Shown in pieces: positions 3,594 to 5,557 of a DNA stretch of 10,749 bases. Both the position numbers and the translations under genes were made by a program. The notes under the pieces were generated by a model. That model saw only the letters and a list, made by a program, of their open reading frames with translations, was not told the DNA's origin and made no database searches. Origin of the DNA: Bacillota bacterium (lineage in GTDB: Bacteria > Bacillota_A > Clostridia > Lachnospirales > Bianqueaceae); contig JAFOIR010000052.1 in NCBI GenBank assembly GCA_017420625.1, positions 1 through 10,749 of the forward strand, in the 5' to 3' direction. The stretch's first letter is position 1. Every line of letters begins with the position of its first letter.

Positions 3594-4820
3594 TCATAGA
3601 GATATCCGGCCATGGTCTTCCTCCGTTTTTTTGAACTGATAATAGGCATGGACAAGGTTCTGATAGCCAAGTCTCTTTATCTCGTTATAAGTGATCCTGT
3701 AGCGGGCTTTCGTATGGGTATCAGACATCAGATACCGGATGCAGTCCTGAGCATAATGATCGATTTCCTTCAGTGAGCGCGTCGTATTGATCATGGAGAA
3801 GAACCAGTGACTCCAGGTGAGCTCGTTGTCTCTTGCATTTTCCAGAAGTTTTCGATTAAACAGGCGGATAAAAGCTTTCGCAGCACGTTCTTTGCTCTGA
3901 TCGTTTCGCTTTTTCCAACGGGCGAGTGCACGAGTCTTGCGGCGCATTTTCTGCTTCAGTTTGCGAACGGTCGCCGGTGCTATATCGACTGTCTTTCCAT
4001 CTACTATGAATCCGAGGAATACCCAGGGATCACCAGGCTGAAAAAAGGATTCTTTTTCAGGATTGACGCTCAGGCCTTTTTCAGTCAGAAAAGAACGGAT
4101 CTCTTCTGCATAGCTCTGTGTTTCTTCCGGTGTATGACCAAAAACGATGATGTCATCCGAATAGCGGGCATAGGGAATACTCCTTTTCCGGAAAGATTCA
4201 TCGAGATCCTTCAGGTACAGATTGGCATAGAAGGAGGAGAGCGGTGTACCGGCCATAATACCTTTTCTTTCACGAATTGGCTCCCCGTTATCCAGTACAT
4301 ACTCTTCTTCCAGAAGAGATCAAAGAAACCTGAAAAGTGACGGATCGTCAGATAGGACATTGCTCAGCATAGGAATCAGACGTTCGACAGGGATGGAATT
4401 GAAATAATCATGAATATCAACTTTGTAGGCAGTCATCGAGTGGATACCGGGAAACCGAATGAGATATCGGACAGCATCCATGGCCGTTCTGCCTGGGCGA
4501 AAAGAATAAAGACCCGGCGAAAACAGACGGTCATACTTCCGAAGAAGCAGATAAGTGAGAAGCTTCATGACAGTGTTTTCGGCCCGGGGGTATGTATAAA
4601 CAGTTCGTTTTTTCTGAGAGCTCAGCTTGCTGATGACAGCTTTTTCAGGCAGTACAAAGCGCTCTCCGCTTGCGATTTTCCTGCATACGGAGAGGTATTC
4701 TTTCTGATCGATCGAAGTCCTCAGGCTTTTCAGAAAAAAGGTCGGACAGGCGAGAGAGGATTTATAGGTATAGAATGCCTCCCATGAAGCTTCATCCGAG
4801 AGCCGATCCAGCAGTGACAT
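3594..4820 (-). pseudogene. Stand-alone reverse transcriptase with an in-frame UGA
   Basis: One reading frame of 408 codons encodes an RNA-directed DNA polymerase, broken by a single UGA at 4320-4322. Numbering from the ATG at 4818-4820, visible RT elements are YSFRPGRTAMDAV (about 105-117), motif A KVDIHDYFNSIP with the first catalytic Asp at 135, IMAGTPLSSFYANLYL (188-203), the catalytic box YARYSDDIIVF with Asp222/Asp223, and WVFLGF further on. The C-terminal part is basic and helical, ending about 20 residues after a YQNLVHAYYQF segment. I see no maturase or HNH domain and no retron signatures (NAxxH, VTG), so it is neither a typical group II intron enzyme nor a canonical retron RT. The start at 4820 is chosen because TGAGGA lies 6 nt before it; the ATG at 4826 abuts that site. 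The RT family is confident; the subfamily is not assigned. It could be a fresh pseudogene, a sequencing error or a recoded gene. Confidence 0.8.
4320..4322 (-). other. In-frame UGA interrupting the RT gene
   Basis: The frame of the N-terminal part (ending SLFRFL) continues without any frameshift after TGA into SLLEEEYVLDNGEPIRERKG and then the GIMAGTP segment. Only this codon separates the two halves. A single base change from Arg (CGA), Trp (TGG), Ser, Leu or Gly codons would produce it. Catalytic motif A lies before it and YSDD after it, so neither half alone has the full active site. Confidence 0.85.
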
Positions 4821-4826
4821 TTTCAT

Positions 4827-4832
4827 TCCTCA
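4827..4832 (-). promoter_or_regulatory. Ribosome binding site deciding the RT start
   Basis: TGAGGA on the - strand directly abuts one ATG (4824-4826) but is 6 nt from the next in-frame ATG (4818-4820). The spacing favours the second ATG, giving a protein beginning MSLLDRLSD. Confidence 0.6.
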
Positions 4833-4838
4833 TAAAGA

Positions 4839-4855
4839 AAAAAACAGAAAGAGAA
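4839..4855. repeat. Left arm of 17-bp inverted repeat
   Basis: AAAAAACAGAAAGAGAA on the + strand, the exact reverse complement of 4969-4985. Nearly all purine on one strand. Pairing stops on both sides (A-A mismatches), so the repeat is exactly 17 bp. Confidence 0.9.
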
Positions 4856-4863
4856 AGCGTTAA

Positions 4864-4883
4864 ATCCCGGAAAATTCCGGGAT
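4864..4883. other. Strong hairpin inside the candidate RNA
   Basis: ATCCCGGAA and TTCCGGGAT are exact reverse complements separated by AA; in RNA this would form about 8 bp with a 4-nt loop. No U-tract follows directly on either strand, so it does not look like a terminator. Confidence 0.8.
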
Positions 4884-4968
4884 ATACCAGACCGTACACA
4901 AACCGGCTGCCTGCGAAACCATCCATTGGTTTGTGCCGGGCCCGCCACAGGCACAGCCAGAGGCTGTA

Positions 4969-4985
4969 TTCTCTTTCTGTTTTTT
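4969..4985. repeat. Right arm of 17-bp inverted repeat
   Basis: TTCTCTTTCTGTTTTTT on the + strand, the exact reverse complement of 4839-4855, separated from it by 113 nt. No clear target-site duplication flanks the two arms. Confidence 0.9.
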
Positions 4986-4996
4986 ACTTAAGTCAG

Positions 4997-5030
4997 GCAC
5001 CTTAAGAGGTGCAGATTTGCTTCGGCAAAT
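4997..5030. other. Two tandem hairpins after the 173-residue gene
   Basis: GCACCT-TAAG-AGGTGC (4997-5012) and ATTTGC-TTCG-GCAAAT (5015-5030) are perfect 6-bp hairpins 2 nt apart. The second carries a C(UUCG)G-type loop on the + strand and CGAA on the - strand. They lie 5 nt after the stop at 5036-5038 and before the 17-bp repeat. Neither has a U-tract, so they are poor terminators. They may protect a 3' end or belong to the leader of the RT transcript. Confidence 0.6.
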
Positions 5031-5035
5031 GATCT

Positions 5036-5557
5036 TTAGCGAAGCACGGAGCGTACGCGGGTAACTACATACTCGCGGGTATTCCACCAGCCGTGATGAT
5101 CATAGTAGAAACGAAGATAAGGAGTACCTTCCATCTGACAAGCACGGCGGACCCGGTTGGATTCGCTCTTTTCAGATTTCAGTTCTACGACCAATGCCTT
5201 GCGACCAGCATGATACACAGTGAAAATCGTTGAACTTCCTTTGGGCTCCTTCTGGCTTACAGCCTGATAGCCCGGAAAATCCTCCCGGAAGATATGATCA
5301 AAATATTCCACATAATTTCCGTGGTAGTTGTACTGATTTTCTTCCATGGGCATGTTTTTGCCCCAGGAAAACCCGGAAGCGGCCGTTTCCGGTTCATAGG
5401 GACGGGCTTGATTCTGAGAACCAGAATCTGAAGCTGAATCGGCTGCATAGGATTCAACCTTGCGTACAGCTTTTTCGGCAACATCGGTTATGCCTTTGGC
5501 CAGCTTTTCCAGGCTGATGTCAGGGGCACCGCCCAACAGTTTCTTGAAAAGTCCCAT
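5036..5557 (-). CDS. Hypothetical 173-residue protein
   Basis: I do not assign this to a named family. The N-terminus (MGLFKKLLGG) is a short basic helix, followed by a helical stretch to about residue 45 and a Ser/Gln/Pro-rich linker to about 70. Residues about 75-173 look like a compact alpha/beta domain with the segments DHIFREDFPGY, IFTVYHAGRKALVVELKSE, CQMEGTPYLRFYYDHHGWWNTREYVVTRVR. The hydrophobic strand ending in ELK recalls the ExK half of PD-(D/E)XK nuclease folds, but no clear preceding Asp motif is seen, so nuclease activity is only a guess. No signal peptide or membrane span. AAAGGAGG at 5565-5572 sits 7 nt before the ATG. The start is 17 nt after the alpha-mannosidase stop, so the two are probably co-transcribed. 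Confidence 0.75.
   Translation of the reverse strand: MGLFKKLLGGAPDISLEKLAKGITDVAEKAVRKVESYAADSASDSGSQNQARPYEPETAASGFSWGKNMPMEENQYNYHGNYVEYFDHIFREDFPGYQAVSQKEPKGSSTIFTVYHAGRKALVVELKSEKSESNRVRRACQMEGTPYLRFYYDHHGWWNTREYVVTRVRSVLR

Follow-up and report, generated by a model that had tools for sequence, protein, structure and literature searches.

Introduction

The described systems that most closely resemble the locus analyzed here are two reverse transcriptases (RTs) that copy templates in associated RNAs. According to the accessible part of its report, DRT9 uses a U-rich loop in its own ncRNA as template, and its two conserved C-terminal tyrosines probably prime the reaction (PMC12483538). The accessible sections on DRT10, which corresponds to UG17, describe copying of an A-B-A′ template located after SL5, with a C-terminal Ser or Tyr as the primer; the Eco3DRT10 RNA is 137 nt long, and its template and repeat reach to approximately nt 119 (PMC12632851). 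A further RT group, UG26, is listed as DRT by PADLOC, and excerpts of a study on cold-seep viruses report UG26 RTs in these viruses with an unknown role (PMC10504277). The UG26 RT and the Rfam RNA family RT-5 have each been catalogued, and the literature we searched, with the defining UG-group and RT-n papers outside its coverage, gave no function for either.

Here, we examine a window, i.e., the whole analyzed stretch of 10,749 nt, in which a UG26-type RT lies next to an RT-5-type RNA. The present analysis contributes a mutual test of RNA and RT occurrence, a covarying closing helix and pseudoknot, cases of apparent action in trans, and the accessory status of a partner gene.

Results

Layout of the UG26 cassette

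The cassette lies on the minus strand and comprises, in order of transcription, a 173-aa gene (5557-5036), a structured segment (4985-4839) and an RT frame (4826-3594). The surrounding genes of the window are ordinary, with Pfam matches to TelA, a transglutaminase-like protein, a GH38 alpha-mannosidase, a short-chain dehydrogenase and an ADP-ribosylglycohydrolase. A reading made from the sequence only had described a perfect 17-bp inverted repeat that closes a 147-nt segment, and we confirmed both arms (4969-4985 and 4839-4855); no other inverted repeat of that length within 200 nt occurs across the window. Folding of minus-strand positions 4827-5005 yielded −73.5 kcal/mol (z = −5.6), a value as low as which was reached by none of 200 shuffles. 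The 3′ end of the closing helix (P0) is a terminator-like U run, and the RT frame, with its KVDIHDYF and RYSDD motifs, follows directly downstream. The previously noted spacing of 18 nt between repeat and RT start applies to the second ATG (4820), whereas the first ATG (4826) gives 12 nt.

Covariation of the RNA structure

The segment contains a match to RT-5 (RF03026) at 4852-4956, spanning model positions 1-104 and scoring 96.4 bits where the gathering threshold is 45.7, which together with the folding result upholds the structured RNA candidate. RF03026 also matched in seven of nine divergent loci tried, with L105 and L114 giving no match. Our own covariance model (138 positions; 33 RNAs, from the window and 32 loci) matched the window at 4839-4984 with 137.2 bits. 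In an alignment of 85 distinct RNAs, prepared with a model lacking the pseudoknot, 93.5% of cells were paired and 46 of 49 pairs showed changes on both sides; this covariation confirms the RNA. None of 500 shuffles scored as high, and slid partners were paired in 35-48% of cells.

The arm of the RNA (4888-4944) consists of helices P2 (4939-4944/4888-4893), P3 (4928-4936/4896-4904) and P4 (4917-4920/4905-4908). A 7-bp pseudoknot joins GCCUGYG, located past the closing helix, to CGCAGGC in the P4 loop; in the window, these are GCCUGUG at 4946-4952 and CGCAGGC at 4909-4915. Six of the seven pseudoknot pairs change on both sides, and 99.3% of cells are paired. Across 86 RNAs, the two arms pair fully in 79 and in 6/7 positions in two, with five gapped or misaligned; the variants include ACCUGCA/UGCAGGU, GUCUGCG/CGCAGAC, GUCCGCG/CGCGGAC, GCUCGCA/UGCGAGC and GCCUGGG/CUCAGGC. 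A best-match search in 26 RNAs picked for breadth, eight of them shared with the 86-RNA set, found at least six contiguous pseudoknot pairs in every case. The last hairpin, P5 (4866-4881; CCCGGAAUUUUCCGGG), shows changes on both sides in 7/7 pairs, and is followed by a single-stranded linker of 9 nt leading to P0 (4856-4864; UUUAACGCU). Together, these data show a conserved RNA structure of approximately 139 nt, whose elements are the closing helix, the arm of three helices with its pseudoknot, the hairpin P5 and a conserved single-stranded UUUAA.

Separately, GUAC before the 3′ arm of P2 and a conserved GUAY after it (window 4884-4897, and in relatives) could pair into an alternative hairpin, perhaps forming a switch.

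RT family and the interrupted frame

Against PADLOC RT_UG26, the two RT pieces of the window scored 195.5 and 331.1 bits, compared to 37.8 and 87.4 bits for the next models, and both the RT and the partner protein matched PADLOC models at E < 1e-57. An intact relative scored 563 bits with RT_UG26 and 118 bits with the next model, a general RT model; the other UG-type models followed with 113 (UG17), 110 (UG27) and 103 bits (UG4), and Drt9 with 94 bits. UG17 is thus the best UG model after UG26, ranking below the general RT model, and the assignment to UG26 is one of profile scores. A single-sequence AlphaFold prediction for one RT (P0003) had a mean pLDDT of 44 and was not used. RYSDD is present in all 92 RT sequences, some of which are near-duplicates.

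The window's RT gene (3594-4826) is interrupted by an in-frame TGA at 4320-4322, codon 169 of 410, which splits it into 168 and 241 codons; the pieces appear as ORFs at 4320-4826 (168 aa) and 3594-4256 (220 aa counted from the first ATG). The KVDIHDYF motif and YSDD box of the stand-alone RT frame read earlier are present, but the window holds no intact catalytic frame, the stop having escaped that reading. Among 17 aligned relatives, the residue at the stop position is Arg in nine and Cys in two; the closest relative, P0001 (97% identical), has Cys, and neighbouring species carry the codons CGT and CGG. With its frame cut by the TGA, the window's RT has probably lost its activity; the exceptions would be an error of sequencing or assembly at this codon, or readthrough of it.

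In comparison with locus L001, the two parts of the frame on either side of the stop are under similar constraint (pN 0.153 for the first and 0.133 for the second, pS 0.80 and 0.65), so the lesion is either recent or an error. Codons 147-187 (window 4265-4388) hold 11 of the 13 amino-acid differences to P0001, the stop counted, a cluster that may stem from mixed assembly or local recombination. Whether the window cassette as a whole is a decaying pseudogene without function has to be weighed against this background. The TGA speaks for decay, and we regard it as a real possibility, though not the one we would choose, given that the lesion is single, that pN and pS are alike on its two sides, that RNA and partner each align with their model from end to end, and that the clustered differences would fit a mixed assembly.

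Genomic context and distribution

The window and two further genomes, G001 and G002, carry the cassette at the same site, between the GH38 and transglutaminase genes, although the RT's synonymous sites have come close to saturation. In the related genome G003, the cassette lies elsewhere, and other genes are found downstream at its GH38 locus. The UG26 cassette is both long kept and patchy, because it occupies the same site in the first three genomes despite this near-saturation and another in G003.

We evaluated the neighbourhood using the 127 nearest genes of at least 150 aa, obtained from 76 of 80 RT loci, of which the 114 not exceeding 700 aa were retained. At most three of the 114 matched a PADLOC model at 1e-10, and the Pfam families of the neighbours were scattered and mostly metabolic among the 25 of 114 shown. 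Searches of viral contigs, phages and plasmids confirmed no relative at the limits used. The neighbourhood therefore gives no backing to the mention of defence-associated RTs (DRT types) in the sequence-only reading, and a phage defence role of the cassette can be suggested by analogy only, because so few neighbours match defence models and the phage and plasmid searches came back empty.

The distribution is uneven. In a class sample of 291 genomes, 119 had some UG26-model match at E 0.001, and UG26 proper, at 463 bits or more, was found in 13, the next scores being 284 and 145 bits. Searches with the RNA only gave 4/7 genomes of the genus, 7/31, and 16/392 of the order, the last figure being a lower bound as stricter filters missed a known case, G094.

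These observations bear on a non-defence reading, in which the same RT-RNA complex would serve a stable chromosomal house function of gut Clostridia. The shared GH38-transglutaminase site, the scarcity of defence-model neighbours next to mostly metabolic families, and the lack of matches in phage, plasmid and viral collections at the limits used would all suit such a role. We nevertheless consider it rather unlikely in view of the patchy occurrence in genus, class and order, the cold-seep virus UG26 RTs in the accessible part of PMC10504277, and the standing of DRT9 and DRT10 as defence systems in the available sections of PMC12483538 and PMC12632851.

Joint occurrence of RNA and RT

Starting from the RT, we took the best 80 of 357 loci from a scan of genome contigs; all are labelled as metagenome-assembled genomes of Bacillota groups, many from ruminant gut. 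Our covariance model, which was built from 32 of these loci and the window, detected the RNA in 77 of the 80 and in the window (78/81 sources). The RT homologues thus keep the upstream structure; its lack was one of the outcomes that the sequence-only reading had named as speaking against its proposal. Of the 105 matches listed for this model, 27 are weak and lie opposite true matches, on the other strand. The RNA was not detected by this model in L026, L046 and L072, of which L026 and L072 begin at or near a contig end. Twelve of the 13 UG26 genomes in the class sample, at least two of which (G001 and G203) are also within the 80 RT loci, have the RNA at the locus, in L102 at 1.2 kb from the RT; in the thirteenth, G092, the distance is 7.3 kb.

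Starting from the RNA, a UG26 RT adjoined it in 23 of 23 distinct loci, six of which are the same DNA as RT-selected loci and 17 new. The second adverse outcome named in that reading, occurrence of the RNA without the RT, was accordingly not seen at these loci.

In L021, partner and RNA are on the opposite strand, facing the RT, and in G298, RNA and partner are on one contig and the RT on another. The inverted or separated arrangement of RNA and RT in L021, G092 and G298 makes it probable that the RNA acts in trans; all three are draft metagenome assemblies, in which single cases may be misassembled. The same arrangements make it improbable that the RNA serves as a cis-regulatory leader for the RT mRNA, such as an attenuator or autoregulatory site, and neither partner nor template of the enzyme. 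A leader would explain why the window's RNA stops 12-18 nt short of the RT start, why most of the 80 loci have the RNA a small distance ahead of their RT match, and why P0 finishes in a U run. It is difficult to reconcile with opposite strands in L021, with the separation in G092 and G298, and with RNA-RT gaps of approximately 580 nt in L042 and 640 nt in L036.

The gaps hold sequences of their own, namely a 186-aa frame in L042 (2074-2634) and a tandem repeat of approximately 66 nt in L036 (3569-3778), with repeated peptides in its open frames. A distant UG26-like RT in L114 (G242; 1501-2622, 284 bits) is a possible outgroup of the system, and RT-5 RNA was not detected within approximately 1 kb upstream of it.

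The partner gene

The gene at 5036-5557, which the sequence-only reading had overlooked, matched PADLOC RTasCOG2852 (PDLC03793) over residues 1-172 with 194.5 bits. Its product was modelled with a putative PD-(D/E)XK nuclease-like fold without the canonical catalytic motif: E125 is invariant and position 127 varies, no conserved D was found in the strands before E125, and the canonical D + (D/E)xK motif is absent. The catalytic residues may have migrated.

By tblastn, the partner was found in 77 of 81 sequences, window included, and not in L026, L046, L070 and L072. Partner match and RT are separated by 163-334 nt, except in L042 (753 nt), L036 (936 nt) and the inverted L021. Searches with the partner profile gave nothing in L101, L102, L103, L105, L106, L108, L112 and L113, nor in L142, L143, L145, L146 and L147, with at most approximately 1.5 kb of upstream sequence in each. 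With none found in these 13 loci by profile and in four by tblastn, an obligate part is ruled out, and the partner is an accessory of the cassette. L111, L141 and L144 have weak matches to the partner immediately ahead of the RNA. In L141 and L144 these sit within longer frames, so divergent clades may carry the partner domain fused to further parts.

A candidate template and primer

Guided by DRT9 and DRT10, we think it reasonably likely that RT and RNA of the UG26 cassette form a complex in which a short stretch next to the last hairpin is copied as template. In such a complex, the ncRNA would bind the UG26 RT as a scaffold, and the linker after P5 would carry the template, at a relative place similar to that of the DRT10 template, with P5 as a candidate template boundary element. 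The RT would probably be primed by a hydroxyl residue in its own C-terminal tail, and would write short or repeated cDNA.

The linker between P5 and P0 begins with UUUAA in 82 of 86 RNAs and spans 9 nt in 83 of them. Its start lies at a median of approximately 0.82 of the RNA length, for example at nt 114 of 139 in L041, and several divergent RNAs depart from UUUAA, e.g., those of L112, L113, L142 and L144. The window's RT has a C-terminal YY. Among the sequences compared, the tail carries YY in 80 of 91, and 89 of 91 have a Tyr at one or both of these positions; this count derives from 92 sequences, some near-duplicates, with one lost to a contig end and three of 80 read by eye. A universal YY primer was ruled out, L109 (FH) and L113 (FW) lacking both tyrosines.

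We also compared the linker region with the A-B-A′ pattern of DRT10, which is weakly present in UG26 RNAs. The mean match was 3.0 versus 2.84 for swapped sequences (16/5000 as high; 0/3000 for within-sequence shuffles), and the base before UUUAA was associated with the linker (Fisher p = 0.0006 without tree control). On the RT tree, this base shows only eight changes; because only two independent pairs fall on supported branches, we do not claim an A-B-A′ template.

A bolder extension is that UG26 and its RNA form a telomerase-like repeat writer, with an RNA that is pseudoknotted like telomerase RNA, a hairpin-bounded template UUUAANNNN and Tyr-primed synthesis of tandem-repeat DNA, maybe in a non-defence role at stable chromosomal sites. 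We rate this scenario as unlikely.

A retron-like msr-msd, in which P0 would play the role of the a1/a2 repeat and the sequence that it encloses would be copied into RNA-primed msDNA, can be dismissed as highly improbable: retrons likewise have inverted repeats beside the RT, but the RT family and signatures differ, with UG26 scoring far above other models, NCBIfam retron models below their cut-offs, NAxxH and VTG absent from the window's RT and found in 2/81 RTs each (the window's taken only as far as the stop), and a conserved pseudoknot closing the RNA arm. This agrees with the earlier placement of the locus as an RT plus ncRNA unit outside the canonical retrons, in which the RNA covaries and travels with the RT. 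The reported lack of group II intron maturase or HNH parts also held, as Pfam shows RVT_1 only in both RT pieces and TIGR04416 scored 122 bits on the intact relative, below the cut-off of 300.

Discussion

Mutual presence, a covarying pseudoknot and a candidate template tie the RT-5 RNA to the UG26 RT and make them an RNA-linked RT group that is directly testable. Both halves have counterparts in existing collections. By score, the window RNA is a member of RT-5; the Rfam model has 104 positions and a displayed structure without closing helix or pseudoknot, whereas the window RNA has both. Both window proteins match the PADLOC UG26 and RTasCOG2852 entries under 'DRT', although the window RT has a stop codon, and the library searched consists of protein models, with no RNA model.

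Among described systems, DRT10 (UG17, a SLATT protein and a 137-nt ncRNA) shares with UG26 the combination of partner gene, ncRNA and RT, a similar RNA length, and a putative template site that follows the last stem-loop, and it supplies the best UG model after UG26. It differs in its partner, the window's being COG2852-like and not SLATT, and in its RT, for which the UG26 model is preferred over UG17; the covarying pseudoknot is a feature of the UG26 RNA. DRT10 template loops are poorly conserved according to the accessible part of PMC12632851, in contrast to the conserved UG26 linker. DRT9 (UG28), as far as its available description goes, resembles UG26 in its upstream ncRNA, a conserved U-containing stretch and two tyrosines near the C-terminus. 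Its template is a universally conserved poly-U, in place of which the UG26 linker has UUUAA, and the Drt9 model scores lower.

The pair of UG26 and RT-5 extends the comparison of bacterial repeat-writing RTs with telomerase that is drawn in the accessible part of the DRT10 report (PMC12632851).
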